Shown: piece after piece, positions 44,519 through 53,249 of the stretch
Numbering within the stretch: position 1 is the stretch's first letter
Layout: each line of letters starts with the position of its first letter
Source of the DNA: Diplonema papillatum
Taxonomy: Eukaryota > Euglenozoa > Diplonemea > Diplonemida > Diplonemidae
Direction: 5' to 3'
DNA length: 64,000 nucleotides
NCBI GenBank assembly: GCA_030068145.1
Contig: JAPJBO010000522.1
Span: 62,001 to 126,000 of the forward strand
Translations under genes and position numbers: made by a program
The notes under the pieces: model-generated
The model's input: only the letters and a program-made list of their open reading frames with translations
Told to the model about the DNA's origin: nothing
The model's database searches: none

Positions 44519-44909
<391 letters not shown>

Positions 44910-44968
44910 GCGGACCCGTTTTAACGTGGTGCCTCCCTTTACGAAAGTACGACCACGCTCATTTATGG

Positions 44969-47900
44969 CTAGGTAACGGCCGATGCACCCTCGGGCTGGG
45001 AGTGGGGGTCTCTGTTCGCTCTTCTGTTTGCATGGTGCTTCGGGCAGCAGCTGGCTAATGCTTCGTTTGCTACTACGCAGTCGCCGCAGCGTCCTAGTCT
45101 GTGTGCTGTGCAAAAGTGCATCCGCGGCCTTAGACCATCCGATCCGTGATGATGCTGCTTGAGGCGACAGCAGGTCTCCGCCGGTAGGCGCTTTTTGACG
45201 CACTCCCTGCATCGCGGCTTCCTGTGATGCGAGCAAACCACTCCGGGGCGGGAGGTATTCACCGCGCCTTCTGGGGCCTCGAACGGGGGGGCTCCTTCGC
45301 ACGGTTCCGTGCTTGAGCTTCTTCCTGCCGCTTCAGCCTTCGTCTTCCAATCCGGCTTTCCCTGCGTCCACCCTGCCGGATAGGCCTCCTCTGGCAAAAA
45401 AGTTGCGGCCCATCCCAGGTGCGGAGGGAACGGGCTGTTTTCTTGTTGGTCTGGCCGATTTTCTCGTGTGTGTTCGCGTATCTTCATGATCACATCCTCG
45501 GTCGCGGTCAATAACTGTGCACGCCTCGAAACACCCCGCACAACCGTTCCTCCCACAGATGTCAAAACGGTGGTGGAGTATTCATGGCCGCAGAACCACG
45601 GCTGTGCAACCACCTTCCCATACGCCTTCCCCATTTCGATGAGGCTGAGCGCTTTTCCTAGACCGGACCGACGGAAGTTTGCCAGCATGGTCTCTTGTTG
45701 CTGCCGGGTGGGCCTTTGGCGTTGCACCAGGTCCATGGCGGCGTTGCTGAGCGCGTCCGCGTCTGTGTTCTGCTCCCGCGCAACGTGCTCAATGTGCAGT
45801 GTCAGCCGTCTCTGCAGGGACGACACCTTCAAGGCCGCGCGCGTCAGATACGGCTTCAGTTCCTCTGAACATGCCATGCGTCGTGCGAGGTGCCCGACAA
45901 CCAGCGCCGAGTCGCCTCGCACCGTGCATTCCTCTCCTTCCGCTTCGCCTGCATCCCCCAGCAGGTGCAGGCCCGCTAGCAGTCCTTCGTACTCTGCTAC
46001 GTTGTTGCTGCGCACGGTCGGCAGTGGCAGGACCACTTCTGCCACTTTCACTCCATCGCGGTACACGACTGCCCCCGCCCCGGCAACGGCGAAGGCGGTC
46101 CCATTCGCTCTCGCCCCGCCATCGAAATAAACCAGGAGCCTGCTGTCTCCCATTTCCCGGGCCGGTAACGTAGCGCGGGCTGCCGTTGCCTTGCCTGTTG
46201 GTGCTTGTGGAGGAGCTGAGTAGAACCTACTCTTCAGGTCAGGGAGTCGCCGTCCTGTGTACAGCTCGAAATCCACTGCCAGTTCGATGAAACTGGTTCC
46301 CAGCTCATCGTGCCCTGGGGGGGCCCACTTCGTCTGCTGCAGCCAGTCGGTAAATGCCATCCACATCTCTTGGCCATATTTCCACTTCGTTCCGACGGCG
46401 GAAGGTGCAATGGCAGGGACCGTGAGTCTGTGTGGTTCTGATGGCTTCCACCCACGCGGGTAGTCCACGGTCCTGTGATGCCTGGCGGACCTGTCAAGCA
46501 GGCCGTCTGCTTCCTGACGTCGAGTTAGGACCTCGACGAAGAAAAGGTGTAGCCGCTTTAGTACACGCAACCTTTCTTCCCTAGCTGCCGGCAGCCCGGG
46601 GATCGCTTCGTCTCCTCGTACAGCTGGGGCCACCCCGCACAAGCGTAGGCACGGGGGCCAATTCCTTTGCACGTTTACCAAGTCTCCGTGCTTCGATCGA
46701 CTTCGTTCCCAGGCTGGGCACATCCAGAACAAGTGCTCTACCGTCTCCCGGTCCTGTGTGTCGCAGTACGGGCAGTTTCGTTCACCCAACCCCGTTCGCC
46801 CGGTTGCCGGTGTGGCCCCCGCAAGTACCGACTTCAGCATGCCGGCTTCGTACGCGGTGAGGGGGGAGTCCCGCATTTCTAGTAGGTGCCGGGTTGCCTG
46901 GTGGTCTACCCCGTTCTGCACACCCCCGAAGTCCGCTGCTCGCCGCGCTGCGAGCTGAGCCATCTCACGCAGCCTCAGCGCGTGCCGCAAGTCGTGTTGA
47001 AAGATTCGGGTGCAGCCTTGCGCCGCTGCATCGTGCACTACCTCGTCTCCGGCTTCGTTCGTGTAGGCAATGCTGGTCGGTGCCACCCAGCGCCACTGGA
47101 GCCCATCCAGAGCTCTCTTGAAAAGGGCTAGGGGCCCTCTCAGCATTAGTAGCGTGTCGCTTTGCTCCCATGCCGTCCGGGACAGAGTCCGCGCGGACTC
47201 CCACTTCTCGACTTGAACAGCCCAGGTGGTTATTCTCCGGTAAACGGGCACTACTACCGGGTCGAGTCTGTGCCCGTGGTGCAGTATGTGCAGCACGGCC
47301 TCCTGGGCTCGCCGCGGCGGTCCCGTCCACACCGCGTCAGTAAACAGCCTTCGTAGGCGCACGATGTCCCGCTTCCTGAGTTCGGACACTGCGGTGCCGT
47401 AGTACCGCTTTGCCCCTGCCGTCATACTAACGACCAGGTCTCTTGCGTCGCCTGGAAGCGGGAGACAGCTAGCCCTTTTCAGCACGAGCTCGGCTTCAGC
47501 GTTTCTCTCCAAGATACGCCTTGACGGTTGTATCGCCTCCCCCGGCGGCACCCGATCCGTCGTTATCATCGCCCCCAGGGCATCAAATGTTGTGCGCCTC
47601 CGTATCAATTCGGTCTGCTCGCTGTTCCCCTCCTCGTCTTTGCTCTCCGCGTATTCGATCGTTTGCGGAGCGTCCGGCGCCGTTGTGAAGAAATGCGATT
47701 TCTTCTGCGTGCAGACTTTCATCCCGGTCAGCCCTGCAAACCGTCCTGACCGCCTGGCCGCCTCCTCCAGGTTTGCGAGTGACTTCAACATCGCATACAC
47801 ATCGTCGACATACGAGAGTGGTATCGCTGCTTCGATGTCTGCTATGTGTCGCATCCAAACGCTAATCAGGACGTTGATGAGAATGACACTTAGGGGGCAT

Positions 47901-50821
47901 CCCTGCATGATCCCGTTCGTCGGAATGAAGCCCTCACCTACTGTCGCTCCCATTCGAAAGTGGCGCTGCATGCTGGCGTAGGCCACCCGCAAGGTCCGCA
48001 GCACAACCTCGTTGAATCCAAGCTCCCCAGCCAGCTTAAAAGCTATCTCAATCGGGACCGAGTCGAAGCACTTCTTGAAGTCTAACGCAAGGCCGTAGAG
48101 TGGTTCACCTGTCAGGTGCGCCTCCTCAATGAGTGCTGCCAAGTGCCATATTAGGTCGTCCGTGCCATGCTCCTTCCGGCAGCCATGCATCCCGCTTGGC
48201 GCGATCTCGTCCATCCACGCGAGTGCTTCTTTCGCCCTTATCGCTGCCCAGATCCGGTATAGGACGGGGGTTATGGATATGGGCCGTTGCGACAGGGGAT
48301 CTCCGGTGCTCTCGGGCTTCGGCAGGAGGTGTATTATTGCGTGCATGAGTTGCTCCGGCCATAGTCCTTCGGTTTCCACTGCGTTCATGGCATCGGCCAT
48401 TAGCTCCAGGATTTCAGGCGGCAGTTGCCTTAGCTCATGCACACGCCATCCGTGTAATCCGGGGGATGTTGTCTTCTTCATCTTCTTGAGGGCCGCATCC
48501 ACATCGGCCGCGCCGATAGGTCTGCATTCCATCGCGTGCGGCGCAGGGAGGTACCGGGCGTAGTGAGTCTTGAAGGCCTCCCATTGGGGCTCCGGGATGT
48601 CCGTGTATTTTTGAAATATTCCGCCCCAGGCTTCAGGTCCTCTCAGCATCTCGTCGATTTCCCTCGGGCATGCAGTCAGAGTCCCGTCCCCTCGCCGCAG
48701 GAACACCGATGGGCTTCCCTGCTGTCCGGCCAGGAAACGGTAGATCGCACCCTTCTCTTGGCTGCCCCACGCTTTCTGGATTCTCTCTTTCCAGAGGCGA
48801 GAACGCTCCGTCTTCAGCTCTGCTACAGCTTCGCGTTGCGTCCCTACCAACTTCTCTGCTGTCGCCACGAGGTACTGCAACTCATCCTCGTCCCCGGTGC
48901 AGGGGTGCTGCGCCAATGACTCTTCAGCAGTACACCGATGCAAAGCGTTTCTCGCGTTCCGTTCCGCAACCGTCATTGCGCTAGGCTGGCCAACGCTCAG
49001 CCTCTGCCTCGCCTCGGCAATCACAGTGCGTAGCATCCCAATCACCTTGTCCCGCTGTCTCACGGACCTATCCGTCGCACCCCGTGCCGTGCACGCCTGC
49101 CTTGCGGACGCGTGCGCCTTCCGAGTGGTGAATCCACCAGCCCTGCCCCGGTAGGCGGTTGATCCTGGCGGGAGGCTCTTCCAGTGCAGGCCAGTCAGGT
49201 AGGCTTCCGCCACTTCCGATGCGTTTCTCAGCGCCCCGTCTGCTCCGCTGACCGCGCGGTTGCGGTCCAAGGCCGTGGTTAGTACACTCCTCATCTCCTC
49301 CTGCGTCATCAACGGCGGCTTCTTCGGGAAAGGAGTGGGTATCCAGTGACCGCGCTCGGGCGGTGTAGATGCCGGGATGCTGAGTGTAACAAACACTGGA
49401 CAGTGTGTCGGGATGTCGTGTTCTCCTGCCTTGGCGGTTTCCACCGTCACCAACGTCCGCGCTGCTACGGCGTTGAGAAAACACATGTCTATGCGAGAGC
49501 CTGCTGCCCCCGCCCAGCAAGTGGATGGAGGGGCATTTGAGCCCTCCTGGGCGGCTGCTGCCGCATCTACCCATCCATTTTGGCAGGCAGCCGCCAGGGA
49601 CATGCTTTCCCCTGTTGGTGTGTTAAAATCGCCCAAGACAGCTATCGGCACTTGCCCGAGTCCTGCAGCCATCTCGAACACATCGGCAAGGAGCTTCTCC
49701 CGTTCCTGGACTACCGCTTGCTCCCTGCCAACAGGCGCGTACACCGATAGCACATGTAGAACCATTCGCGCATTGCCTGTTGCTACAACGGCATGTGCGA
49801 CCCGTGTGCTTTTCGCCAACCGCTTCTCCAACTCCGTGGTAGGCTGTGTGGTTTTGGCAACTAACCCGCGGGTGGTGACCGCTGTGCCGCCCGGCACCCG
49901 CTGTCCGATTCCGTTCGCGCCGACAACAATCGGTACGTCTTCTCCCCAGTGGCAGTCCCATCCGTACGCTCCTAGAAAGAGCTCACTCGTCCTCTTCGCT
50001 TCTGGGCCCGCCCTGGTTTCTTGTAGGGCAACAATGTCCGCCGGCAGGTTCGCCACCGTCCGACACCTCGCGCTTATGGACCCAATGTTCGCCGTCGCGA
50101 GCACTATATCCTTACAGGACGCATCTCCATTGCGAACTGGGTGGCGAGGCGCTTGCTCCACGGCTGTTAGCCTGCTCAAGGGAATCTGAGACACCTCGGG
50201 GGCGGTTGTCGCCAGTTGCCGGAGGATGGTATGCGGCACGTTCAATGCGTCGTAATGTTGCGGCCGGTAGGTCAAGACTATTACGCGTGACGCATTTGGC
50301 GCCCGTCCCTCACACCTGAGGAGTGCCGGGTGCGTTGTTGAGAGCACCCACACTGTCGCTCTGAGCACCTCAGCAGCTGCTTGCAACGTGAGGTGGTCAC
50401 CATATTGCCCGTCTCCGGCTACGGTGAAGAGGTATTCCGATAGCGTCACATCAGCGGGGATGAACGCTACCGGCGGGTTGTGACGAAGCTGCCAGGTGAC
50501 CTTCTGCCGTAAGGAAGTAGCCGAAAGACTCAGCTTACTCCCACGGAGCAAAGCGGCAAACTGGCAATTACCATCTTTCTCAACTGGGACCCGTCTCGCA
50601 CAAATGGTCGCAGCCGCCTCGTCCAGCTGCGCGTCGCCGCTTTCCGCTGGCGTTGGTTGATAAACTGCGGCTTGAAAAAGTGATGATGATGATGGCCTCG
50701 CACTCGCGACTTCCCCTTCTCGTCGGGTTTGGTTGTTTGTACCAGAGTTGGCGCACCGGGTAGCGCCAGTTGACGTGTTTGTATTGTTTGCCGTCAGTTC
50801 TTGCCCGGTGCGCCCAGCTCC
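44969..50821 (-). CDS. LINE ORF2: OTU protease, endonuclease, reverse transcriptase, RNase H, Cys/His repeats
   Basis: The frame opens immediately after the ORF1 UAG and runs 1950 codons without a stop. It has no Met codon until about codon 353, inside the endonuclease, so it probably cannot start on its own. OTU protease motifs are KDGNCQFAALL at about codons 82-92, YGDHLTLQ, and HYDAL at about codon 189; the Asp, Cys and His are all present. The AP-like endonuclease (about 240-480) shows ADIVALQETR, LGDFNTPTGES, SRIDMCFLN and a late His (THCPVF). The reverse transcriptase (about 760-1010) shows LALDFKKCFDSV, GIMQGCPLS and YVDD (47801-47812). A CPYC..H..C cluster follows. RNase H shows LLVYFDGGARANG (about 46140) and HVAREQNTDADALSNAA (about 45765). 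Two CxxHRxxRCxxC..CC..H repeats end the protein (about 45060-45235). Proposed expression is as a fusion of about 2380 aa with ORF1 by readthrough. Confidence 0.9.
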   Translation of the reverse strand, partial: GAGRTGQELTANNTNTSTGATRCANSGTNNQTRREGEVASARPSSSSLFQAAVYQPTPAESGDAQLDEAAATICARRVPVEKDGNCQFAALLRGSKLSLSATSLRQKVTWQLRHNPPVAFIPADVTLSEYLFTVAGDGQYGDHLTLQAAAEVLRATVWVLSTTHPALLRCEGRAPNASRVIVLTYRPQHYDALNVPHTILRQLATTAPEVSQIPLSRLTAVEQAPRHPVRNGDASCKDIVLATANIGSISARCRTVANLPADIVALQETRAGPEAKRTSELFLGAYGWDCHWGEDVPIVVGANGIGQRVPGGTAVTTRGLVAKTTQPTTELEKRLAKSTRVAHAVVATGNARMVLHVLSVYAPVGREQAVVQEREKLLADVFEMAAGLGQVPIAVLGDFNTPTGESMSLAAACQNGWVDAAAAAQEGSNAPPSTCWAGAAGSRIDMCFLNAVAARTLVTVETAKAGEHDIPTHCPVFVTLSIPASTPPERGHWIPTPFPKKPPLMTQEEMRSVLTTALDRNRAVSGADGALRNASEVAEAYLTGLHWKSLPPGSTAYRGRAGGFTTRKAHASARQACTARGATDRSVRQRDKVIGMLRTVIAEARQRLSVGQPSAMTVAERNARNALHRCTAEESLAQHPCTGDEDELQYLVATAEKLVGTQREAVAELKTERSRLWKERIQKAWGSQEKGAIYRFLAGQQGSPSVFLRRGDGTLTACPREIDEMLRGPEAWGGIFQKYTDIPEPQWEAFKTHYARYLPAPHAMECRPIGAADVDAALKKMKKTTSPGLHGWRVHELRQLPPEILELMADAMNAVETEGLWPEQLMHAIIHLLPKPESTGDPLSQRPISITPVLYRIWAAIRAKEALAWMDEIAPSGMHGCRKEHGTDDLIWHLAALIEEAHLTGEPLYGLALDFKKCFDSVPIEIAFKLAGELGFNEVVLRTLRVAYASMQRHFRMGATVGEGFIPTNGIMQGCPLSVILINVLISVWMRHIADIEAAIPLSYVDDVYAMLKSLANLEEAARRSGRFAGLTGMKVCTQKKSHFFTTAPDAPQTIEYAESKDEEGNSEQTELIRRRTTFDALGAMITTDRVPPGEAIQPSRRILERNAEAELVLKRASCLPLPGDARDLVVSMTAGAKRYYGTAVSELRKRDIVRLRRLFTDAVWTGPPRRAQEAVLHILHHGHRLDPVVVPVYRRITTWAVQVEKWESARTLSRTAWEQSDTLLMLRGPLALFKRALDGLQWRWVAPTSIAYTNEAGDEVVHDAAAQGCTRIFQHDLRHALRLREMAQLAARRAADFGGVQNGVDHQATRHLLEMRDSPLTAYEAGMLKSVLAGATPATGRTGLGERNCPYCDTQDRETVEHLFWMCPAWERSRSKHGDLVNVQRNWPPCLRLCGVAPAVRGDEAIPGLPAAREERLRVLKRLHLFFVEVLTRRQEADGLLDRSARHHRTVDYPRGWKPSEPHRLTVPAIAPSAVGTKWKYGQEMWMAFTDWLQQTKWAPPGHDELGTSFIELAVDFELYTGRRLPDLKSRFYSAPPQAPTGKATAARATLPAREMGDSRLLVYFDGGARANGTAFAVAGAGAVVYRDGVKVAEVVLPLPTVRSNNVAEYEGLLAGLHLLGDAGEAEGEECTVRGDSALVVGHLARRMACSEELKPYLTRAALKVSSLQRRLTLHIEHVAREQNTDADALSNAAMDLVQRQRPTRQQQETMLANFRRSGLGKALSLIEMGKAYGKVVAQPWFCGHEYSTTVLTSVGGTVVRGVSRRAQLLTATEDVIMKIREHTRENRPDQQENSPFPPHLGWAATFLPEEAYPAGWTQGKPDWKTKAEAAGRSSSTEPCEGAPPFEAPEGAVNTSRPGVVCSHHRKPRCRECVKKRLPAETCCRLKQHHHGSDGLRPRMHFCTAHRLGRCGDCVVANEALASCCPKHHANRRANRDPHSQPEGASAVT

Positions 50822-50824
50822 CTA
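50750..50824 (-). promoter_or_regulatory. Predicted stop-codon readthrough element (UAG plus stem-loop)
   Basis: On the coding strand ORF1 ends GAG-AAG-AAG-UAG followed by G. After a 7-nt spacer begins a perfect 11-bp stem (50804-50814 with 50750-50760, GGCGCACCGGG pairing CCCGGTGCGCC) with a 43-nt loop that can form an inner TGACG/CGTCA helix. The frame after the UAG is the same as before it. This layout (UAG-G, short spacer, stable structure) is that of known readthrough stimulators such as the gammaretroviral gag-pol junction. Function is inferred. Confidence 0.6.
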
Positions 50825-52114
50825 CTTCTTCTCCAACGGGCTGAAACGATTGGCGGTGCCAATCATCTCAGTGAGCAGCTGCTGCTTGCCGCCGCCTTTT
50901 CCTCCTTTCGCCTTTCCAGCTGGCACCGGCCGCCTTGTCGCCTCGGTCAGCTGTTTGAGTTGCTCGTCCAGCTCCCTCGCGTCTGCCTCTTTCCTTGCCT
51001 TCTTCCCTTTCCTCGTGCTTGGGCTTTGAGCAGCGGCTTGGCCTGGGAGTGGCTCCTGTGCGGCGCCTTCTAAAGGCTCGGGCGGCGAGACAGCCGGCTG
51101 TGAGGCTTCGACGGGCGGTGGTGGCTGTGAGGGGGCTGCTGGCTGTGAGGAAGGTTCTGGCTGTGAGGAAACTGCTGGCTGTGAGGAAGCCGCTAGCTGC
51201 GGGGGTACCGCCGGCTGTGGAAGTGCCATTAGTCTCACGAGCAGCGATTCAACGCGGGCGTTCATTTCTTCGGTCACGCCGGCCAGTTTCTGCTCGACAT
51301 CCGCCATCCATAGCAGCTGGCGTGCGTACGCCGCTTCCTCGCGTTGCGTCGCGATTTGGGACTGTGCGTCTGCCCAGCTCATCAAGCGCTTCTCGAACGC
51401 TAGCTCCCAGGTTACGCGGGCGTTAGCCCGCTCCTTCTCCCACACCTCACGCTGCCTCCTCTGCTGCTCCTCCCATGCAGTCCAGGCTGCCGTTGTCACG
51501 TCGCTGCGGATTTCGTTCCGCATCTCTACGTCGTTGGTGTCACGCGTTGCGGGCTGCAGCTCATCAAGTTGGGCCTGAAGGCGCTTCTGCTGCCTTTTCT
51601 TGGTCTCTCCATCGGCCTTGACCGCCTGTCTCCATTCGGCCTCTCCCCTCTTCTTCCCGAACTCTACCAAGAATTCCGTCTTGGTGTATCTGGGGCCCCT
51701 TGGCTGCTTGTTGTCCGGCAGCCGGCTCGGAGGCCCGGCCGCTGCCAGGCGTTCAATCTCCTCCTGGAGCTTGCGGACCCGCTCCTCCTTCTTCGCTTCC
51801 TGTTCAGCGAGAATTCGCTCTTCCACGTCAACGATCTCGGCCTCTTCATCGCCGACCCGCACCTTCTTGGCAGGCGGGGGTGCCGTCGCTTCTACGTGCG
51901 CGGTGCCTCGCCTAACCCGCACACGCGCTCCGGACCACCCCAACTGCTCAATCAGGCGCTCATAAGCACCCGCCCTTCCCTTCAGCACCTCGAGCCGTAT
52001 CGTGTACTCTCGGGGTTCGGGCAGGTGCACCACCCGCACTCCTGCGAACCTTTCGTTGCCCGGGGCGTTCACCCCGGGTTCCAGGGGGACCGCGTGGAGG
52101 TTGTTCGCATCCAT
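50822..52114 (-). CDS. LINE ORF1 protein (coiled coil, basic tail)
   Basis: The first plausible start is ATG 52114, about 40 nt after the microsatellite, giving 430 aa. The longer open frame back to 52216 only translates TG repeats. The protein begins MDANNLHAVPLEPG. It has a charged Lys/Glu/Arg-rich helical middle (about residues 90-290) that should form coiled coil, an unassigned conserved-looking patch PRYTKTEFLVEFG..EW, and a Pro/Ser/Gln repeat region of SQPA units (about 51110-51215). It ends in a basic Lys/Gly-rich tail, GKAKGGKGGGK. There is no CCHC knuckle. By analogy with other LINEs it would bind element RNA. It ends at the UAG discussed as a readthrough site. Confidence 0.8.
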   Translation of the reverse strand: MDANNLHAVPLEPGVNAPGNERFAGVRVVHLPEPREYTIRLEVLKGRAGAYERLIEQLGWSGARVRVRRGTAHVEATAPPPAKKVRVGDEEAEIVDVEERILAEQEAKKEERVRKLQEEIERLAAAGPPSRLPDNKQPRGPRYTKTEFLVEFGKKRGEAEWRQAVKADGETKKRQQKRLQAQLDELQPATRDTNDVEMRNEIRSDVTTAAWTAWEEQQRRQREVWEKERANARVTWELAFEKRLMSWADAQSQIATQREEAAYARQLLWMADVEQKLAGVTEEMNARVESLLVRLMALPQPAVPPQLAASSQPAVSSQPEPSSQPAAPSQPPPPVEASQPAVSPPEPLEGAAQEPLPGQAAAQSPSTRKGKKARKEADARELDEQLKQLTEATRRPVPAGKAKGGKGGGKQQLLTEMIGTANRFSPLEKK

Positions 52115-52154
52115 AACTTTTAAAGTTTGTGTAGTGCGTTGTGGATTTCCCCCC

Positions 52155-52200
52155 GTGTGTGTGTGTGTGTGTGTGGGTGGGTGTGTGTGTGTGGGTTTTG
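52155..52200. repeat. (TG)n tract at the retrotransposon 5' flank
   Basis: About 38 bp of TG repeats with GTGGGTGGGTG interruptions, adjoining the element's 5' end. It is the short counterpart of the 390-bp tract at the other end. Confidence 0.95.
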
Positions 52201-53249
52201 TGTGTCGTGCAAGCACAGGTTTGAGGCTTTAGGCACAACAGGACTGCGCCCATTGTGCCACTCACGATCAAGTGTATCAGCATTTGTTTTCTATCGCCTG
52301 GAAGAGGCAATAGAGGAAGCGTCATGCGCAAATTGTATCGAATTCTGAGTGATCACAGCAAGCGGATGGCGGCGGAACGGCCTTACTCCAGGCCTGACGT
52401 CTGAAAGTTGTGCATGCCCGCATTCAGATGACAGTCGGGCCGTCAGGCGTTTACTTGAGTGTACACGCACACACTCCGAAAGGAGACTATATACCCCCCG
52501 AGGGTGTACGATGCGCCGTGTAAGCCCCACCATGGATGAGCTGGACTTTTGCGGTCAGGGGAAGAAGGGGAAGAAGTGCTTTCTTCTACCTTACAAGCAA
52601 AAACAGTTGAGAGGATGCTAAAAACTAACTCCGAGAGGTGGCTGGCCAGAACCAGGTTGCGATTCCGGGTTGGCCATGCGAAGACAGAGTGTCCAAGCGT
52701 CTGGTTTGCGGTATTTACAAGTTGCAGTTCACTGAGGGAATTGTCGCATCGGATTGTTCAACAGTGCTGTTTTCAATTCGGACCCACAGCAGGTGGACCG
52801 CAGATAGTGATTAAAGATAAACAGTTGAGTGCACATTGGTTTCCTATATAATAATTTTGAAAGAGAAGTTGGAGAAACCTTCTACACGTTTGCCAAAATA
52901 AAAGGGCTAGCACGCAGCAGAGCAGGGGCGTAGCATGTTGGGTTTGTGGACAGTGCACCACGAAACCTGCCCAAAATGAGGTGTAGGAAAAAGTCTGTTT
53001 CGAGCACCTAGTCCGAGCACATCAGGTAGTGTAGATGGATGTGTGCGAAGCTGGCGTGTACGCACCTCCTGAAGCTCCCGGCCCGACAGTATACTCGCTC
53101 TGCCTCGGTGGGCGCCCAGTTTAGGGACGGGTTTGCGGGTTTACGCGCATCTTAGCAACATTCCGGTTCTCTAGACAGATTCTTGCAAGGCTCTCAGGGA
53201 GGAAATACGGAAACCCTCTTCAAAAAAGAAAAAAATAAGCAATTTACCT

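Follow-up and report, generated by a model that had tools for sequence, protein, structure and literature searches.

The genome of Diplonema papillatum, a marine flagellate belonging to the diplonemids, an abundant marine group, carries non-LTR (non-long-terminal-repeat) retrotransposons in which two open reading frames (ORF1 and ORF2) are separated by a single in-frame UAG, and comparison of their copies indicates that this UAG very probably undergoes programmed readthrough, which would make an ORF1-ORF2 fusion. The window analysed here is a stretch of 64,000 nucleotides (nt) of D. papillatum DNA on contig C522, which contains one complete element of this kind on its minus strand (44909..52154, subfamily A), and the genome searched for further copies (G000) comprises 271 Mb. 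At least nine subfamilies are found in this one genome, five of which (A, B, C, D1 and D2) have UAG and a stem and four of which (E1, E2, F1 and F2) have UGA and AUG; many copies are near-identical and thus probably recent. A broader reading, somewhat less certain but still likely, is that one lineage of long interspersed nuclear elements (LINEs) expresses its polymerase by gammaretrovirus-like UAG readthrough, as an ORF1-ORF2 fusion, and related lineages by a nearby AUG, the two devices being exchangeable 5' modules within one genome.

Along the minus strand, the window copy consists of a 5' leader, ORF1 (430 amino acids (aa), 50822..52114), UAG, ORF2 (1950 codons, 44969..50821), a short 3' tail and a (CA)n repeat. 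ORF2 is in frame 0 with ORF1, is open from 50821 to 44972 and ends in SAVT at its own UAG (44971-44969). The ORF1 stop, which is the proposed readthrough site (UAG-G), occupies 50822..50824 and is followed by the 7-nt spacer GGAGCUG (50815..50821), by the 5' arm of a stem, GGCGCACCGGG (50804..50814), and by its 3' arm, CCCGGUGCGCC (50750..50760). The first four bases of the spacer (50818-50821) can also pair with 50744..50747 as an outer 4-base-pair (bp) helix, and a hairpin within the loop (50771..50796) is formed by UGACG and CGUCA (50792-50796 with 50771-50775). An earlier note on this DNA, made from the sequence of the window, had described one frame across a single UAG with 1950 open codons behind it, no methionine until codon 353, inside the endonuclease, and a G, a 7-nt spacer and a perfect 11-bp stem after the stop, and in all these points it proved right. 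The first in-frame AUG of ORF2 is codon 353 (49763..49765); a start there would lose half of the endonuclease, as the note had argued, and the OTU residues 83-166 lie upstream of it.

A perfect Watson-Crick stem of 11 bp that starts at most 14 nt into an 80-nt stretch is unique in the 7.2-kb element, and the junction fold has a z-score of -3.27, with equal stability in 1 of 200 dinucleotide shuffles. Weaker measures show that 4.5% of the 80-nt stretches of the element are at least as stable as the junction and that, with spans of up to 140 nt, 9 of 6993 starts in the element, the junction included, score as high as the junction stem; the same stem score is reached by 1 and 4 of 1351 starts in the B and C loci, respectively. 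The single-copy statistic is therefore moderate, and it is the comparison between subfamilies that carries weight.

The genome search with ORF2 gave 25 loci, in 19 of which the junction anchor is present and in 6 absent, two loci (L022 and L025) being one junction. The 18 distinct subfamily A junctions, which include that of the window, do not differ from one another in the TAG or in the 97 nt that follow it. Searches for ORF1 with P0010 (102 matches listed) and P0017 (114 matches listed) yielded another 17 loci (L026-L042), picked for subfamily sampling and not at random: three B, five C, four D1 and four D2 copies and, in addition, a degenerate copy of A (L031). In each of the 17 a G stands directly after the TAG, so that UAG-G is present in 35/35 distinct junctions read from the five subfamilies; later stops occur in L028, L031 and L038. 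No open frame longer than 832 aa was found among the 102 and 114 ORF1 matches listed, some of which stop short of the ORF1 end. The readthrough proposed in the earlier note would fit poorly with a sense codon at the UAG of other copies, with an AUG upstream of the OTU domain or with a stem that is not conserved, and none of these was seen: the 35 junctions all have TAG, the representatives of A, B, C, D1 and D2 have no such AUG, and in the five the stem lies at an identical distance from the UAG and some of its pairs covary. A recent nonsense mutation in an originally fused frame, which the note had offered as an alternative, is excluded, because the UAG is common to five subfamilies whose ORF1 proteins are 53-64% identical.

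In all subfamilies read, ORF2 is in frame 0 relative to ORF1, an arrangement that does not correspond to programmed frameshifting. The first AUG lies at codon 353, 314, 157, 237 and 313 in the representatives of A, B, C, D1 and D2, none of which has an AUG at or near the stop, as termination-reinitiation would have it.

The best local stem begins 7 nt after the UAG in all five representatives and has 11, 13, 10, 10 and 10 bp in A, B, C, D1 and D2. All 50/50 cells of its 10-bp core are paired, compared with 16-25/50 after displacement of the 3' arm by 1-4 positions. Core pairs 5, 6 and 8 vary yet stay paired, pair 6 being A-U, G-U or C-G, while pair 11, beyond the core, is G-C in A, A-U in B and unpaired in C and D. 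Covariation among A, B and D2 is also seen in the outer helix, to which the four bases directly after the UAG belong (GGAG/CUCU, GGGG/CCCU and GUCG/CGAC) and which C and D1 lack in this form, and the hairpin within the loop has a compensated change between A and B. The arms span 64, 64, 133, 97 and 73 nt in A, B, C, D1 and D2, every difference being a multiple of three. Between the arms, the loop contains stretches of low-complexity codons, for His in D1 and for Ser in C (L032-L034, L039, L029), which are perhaps expanding in threes.

Substitutions between A and B also mark this region. The proportion of synonymous differences (pS) is 0.194 in codons 1-25 after the UAG, lowish in codons 26-50 (0.312, 20 codons) and 0.547 beyond codon 50, and a value as low as the first occurs in 46/20000 random codon sets. 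Four synonymous changes occur in codons 1-25, all at paired positions: those of codons 1, 6 and 10 are matched on the opposite strand, and that of codon 4 turns C-G into U-G. In codons 60-310, all of them before the first AUG, pS is 0.542 and the proportion of nonsynonymous differences (pN) is 0.145, which indicates that these codons are translated and kept as protein; judged by these substitutions, ORF2 upstream of its first AUG is under purifying selection.

Subfamilies E1, E2, F1 and F2, which were reached by searches with P0004 and P0001 and of which six loci were read (L055-L060), provide a natural control for the UAG and its stem. In 6/6 loci ORF1 ends at UGA and ORF2 follows in the same frame, with an AUG at codon 5 in E, codon 19 in F1 and codons 7 and 11 in F2. 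A stem of more than 5 bp at offset 7 is present in none of the six, the longest stem near the stop being one of 8 bp at offset 1 in F2. Thus, UAG and stem are found in five subfamilies without a nearby AUG and are absent in four that have one, and E and F look like elements that express ORF2 by reinitiation at AUG. The proposed exchange of modules would be exemplified by E, which has the UGA-AUG start and an F-type OTU domain in front of an OTU domain and ORF2 body of A-D type and lacks the UAG and stem. The ORF2 of E (L057 and L058; contigs C2203 and C7) has two tandem OTU domains in one ORF, the first closest to F (48%, vs 35% to A) and the second closest to A (56%, vs 32% to F), an arrangement that apparently arose by recombination between retrotransposon lineages. 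Two other readings of these subfamilies were rejected: an F-like ORF1 in E, since the last 112 residues, which are all that was read, match neither A nor F ORF1, and a fused ORF in F, since the UGA is present and the apparent open frame of 2544 is not one frame.

In the proposed mechanism, most ribosomes would stop at the UAG and release the ORF1 protein, which has a coiled coil and is presumably RNA-binding, and a minority would decode the UAG with a near-cognate tRNA, aided by the UAG-G context and the stem 7 nt downstream. The continuing ribosomes would make a fusion of about 2381 residues, which the OTU protease or another protease may later cut, and the outcome would be a gag-to-gag-pol style ratio in a LINE. 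Readthrough would explain together the identity of the stop, the G at position +4, the fixed spacing, the structure, the keeping of the frame and the missing start. Type III readthrough is described as depending on UAG, a 3' G or purine-rich octanucleotide, and a 3' structure about 8 nt on (PMC3542737). The elements have UAG, and G follows it in all five subfamilies; the octanucleotide after the UAG has six purines of eight in A and B, five in D and four in C, and the stem starts at nt 8 in 5/5 representatives, with weak energy support in C. On these sequence features, the site is to be regarded, again with high probability, as type III readthrough in a LINE.

Several observations weigh against this interpretation. 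The five subfamilies share ancestry, so that a common frame and stop cannot be counted as independent. Of the ten core pairs, seven are invariant and pair 6 alone changes on both sides, and the D1 and D2 arms are identical, which limits independent covariation. The stem of subfamily C appears in the minimum-energy fold at 200 nt and not at 155 nt, and over its first 60-80 nt the C junction is no more stably folded than the remainder of the locus. No conserved pairing of the loop to 3' sequence, as in the compact pseudoknot of gammaretroviruses, was found across the representatives; such a pseudoknot is not present in all type III members, some of which use stem-loops instead (PMC3542737). In codons 1-25, pN (0.184) is close to pS and selection on the protein is not demonstrable there, so that RNA rather than protein seems to be conserved. 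The conservation of Gly-Arg after the UAG was rejected as proof of translation, because the stem forces it. Finally, the linker is free of stops in 5-21% of shuffles per subfamily, so that its openness alone is weak evidence.

The main rival to readthrough is reinitiation without AUG, in which ORF2 would start at a near-cognate codon after the UAG. SART1, with the stop-start site UAAUG, depends on a structure further downstream (PMC5972666), so that a 3' structure alone is no proof of readthrough; A and B both have CUG at codon 9, and the related E and F look like reinitiation at AUG. The near-cognate codons, however, lie at differing places (GUG at codon 12 in C and codon 10 in D2), and D1 has none in codons 1-29, only AGG at codon 30. 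Moreover, the stem is fixed in position to the UAG and not to any start, insertions and deletions in the loop preserve the frame, and A-D uniformly have UAG-G where E and F have UGA, all of which makes such a start improbable.

The UAG and stem could instead form an intron of the type known from Euglena, non-canonical and with paired ends, whose excision would fuse ORF1 to ORF2. Introns with pairing ends are described in euglenids and hemistasiid diplonemids (PMC12621601; PMC6221363), a fixed stem closing a variable loop is similar to them, and the length of UAG plus stem is divisible by three. This explanation is nevertheless quite unlikely, about half as credible as a non-AUG start. The genome paper reports that none were detected in D. 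papillatum (PMC10161547). An intron needs neither a length divisible by three nor an open frame, yet 5/5 representatives keep both, and no GT donor at a homologous place common to all five was seen by eye. Copying of spliced RNA should leave copies without the segment, yet 35/35 junctions keep it, although the anchor would miss copies without the ORF1 end. A canonical GT-AG intron was considered and rejected: in-frame GT-AG spans exist in every subfamily (13-29), and no donor common to all was seen.

Still less probable is that RNA editing changes the UAG, for instance to UGG, or that this host reads UAG as sense. The UAG adjoins a helix, and related trypanosomatids can reassign stops (PMC12153298). 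But UAG does act as a terminator in these elements, since it closes ORF2 of A, B, D1 and D2 behind the SAVT that in C precedes UGA. Reverse transcription of edited RNA would introduce TGG into new copies, whereas 35/35 junctions have TAG, and the accessible part of the genome paper names only the tRNA-editing genes ADAT2/3 (PMC10161547). The least credible explanation is that ORF2 is made only as a short product from the AUG that exists at codon 353 in A, with the linker and OTU region as a relic, since half of the endonuclease would be lost, codons 60-310 show purifying selection, and the first AUG lies at unrelated places in the five subfamilies (codons 353, 314, 157, 237 and 313).

Domains of ORF1 and ORF2—ORF1 has a small alpha/beta domain, a long coiled coil and a basic C terminus, which ends in NRFSPLEKK and, modelled at low confidence, is probably disordered. 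The ORF1 proteins of A-D have in common a C-terminal NR[YF]xP[LI], with QQ before it, directly before the stop (50825-50900 in the window). ORF2 begins with a linker that contains the RNA structure (codons 1-54, 50660..50821), followed by an OTU-like cysteine protease domain (residues 83-166, 50324..50575), an apurinic/apyrimidinic endonuclease (APE)-type domain (Exo_endo_phos, residues 242-457, 49451..50098), a reverse transcriptase (RT; RVT_1, residues 835-1051, 47669..48319) and RNase H (RVT_3, residues 1580-1695, 45737..46084), the last three recognized by Pfam profiles, and it ends in a Cys/His-rich C terminus. The OTU assignment comes from the Pfam profile. Against the cut-off of 23.3 bits, subfamily B scores above (26.0) and A (18.6) and C (22.7) below; the structure model of the region is poor (mean predicted local distance difference test score 54), and deubiquitinases make up its best 26 PDB matches, almost every one of which carries OTU or DUBA in its title, with a best E-value of 0.024 and template-modelling scores of 0.22-0.37. 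One D2 copy (L036, C417:111530-112680) has lost the entire OTU region by an in-frame deletion, with junction and stem intact. The SAVT-stop end of ORF2 (44969-45000 in the window; L051-L054), with Cys/His-rich motifs before it, is nearly invariant across subfamilies and is also found in the distant proteins P0020, P0021 and P0023.

The element has RT and APE endonuclease in a single ORF (RVT_1, 4.3e-18; Exo_endo_phos, 2.6e-11), as in APE-type LINEs. It lacks LTRs, its direct repeats of at least 30 nt being (CA)n and one ORF1 minirepeat only; copies without the 5' part are present among the 25 loci, and the 3' tail is the simple repeat (CA)n. Its ends are common to other copies, from GGGGGGAAATCC, which stands directly after (CA)n and is followed by the short leader and ORF1, to ...AACGGGTCCGCAA, and the boundaries 44909 and 52154 are approximate because (CA)n adjoins. 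By copy comparison, the (CA)n microsatellite at the 5' end (52155..52205) is the likely target, and another one lies at the 3' end (44521..44908). Flanks of subfamily A copies with intact ends are (CA)n wherever visible, (CA)n flanks are also found in B, C, D1 and D2 (12 stretches), and one array (L054) contains a D1 element and, after it, a C element; insertion thus looks (CA)n-targeted. ORF2 is 98-100% identical in the 25 genome matches scored (at least 25 copies), so that the subfamily A family is young and probably active.

Both ORFs match annotated D. papillatum proteins, and P0008 spans ORF1 at 100% identity (rounded; a few residues differ). Public gene models of the elements (P0001, P0004 and others) are misleading: they start late, contain introns that are apparently false and bear the name "Ribonuclease HI". 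As evidence on start sites, those of the models P0001, P0003 and P0020-P0023 were set aside, that of P0001 because it lies hundreds of codons inside its own ORF2. In an RT tree of 13 rows, which includes A alone of the five UAG subfamilies, A groups with P0001 and P0003 (100/100), separate from F, P0020/21 and P0022/23.

Among known systems, type III viral readthrough, as in gammaretrovirus gag-pol and some plant viruses, likewise joins an upstream protein to a polymerase (PMC3542737), but here the host of the device is a diplonemid non-LTR retrotransposon, and the structure is a stem with a variable loop in which no conserved pseudoknot was found. Termination-reinitiation LINEs, such as SART1 (UAAUG, with a downstream structure) and human L1, also obtain ORF2 from one RNA (PMC5972666); unlike them, A-D have no AUG near the stop, and it is E and F of the same genome that resemble that type. 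L1Tc of Trypanosoma cruzi is another euglenozoan non-LTR element with an unusual translation device, a 2A sequence (PMC5972666), but its 2A separates products of one ORF, whereas here a stop separates two ORFs. In Drosophila, recoding is required or has been discussed for the non-LTR elements TART and HeT-A (PMC5009743). The pol of TART lies in another frame with a start codon, unlike an in-frame UAG. Regarding the insertion site, the elements resemble Mino, an (AC)n-targeting R1-clade element, in being APE-type elements in (CA)n arrays, with different host and domains.

To our knowledge, the translation of LINE ORF2 from one RNA is settled in few cases only. No report of ORF1-UAG-ORF2 readthrough in a non-LTR element was recognized in the accessible open-licence PMC literature, subscription papers being outside this scope, and readthrough by UAG and stem, known from some retroviruses and plant viruses, is apparently new for non-LTR elements. 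The presence of both devices in one genome makes the switch between readthrough and reinitiation directly testable, and, if the proposed mechanism is true, gag-pol style readthrough extends to non-LTR elements and to diplonemids.

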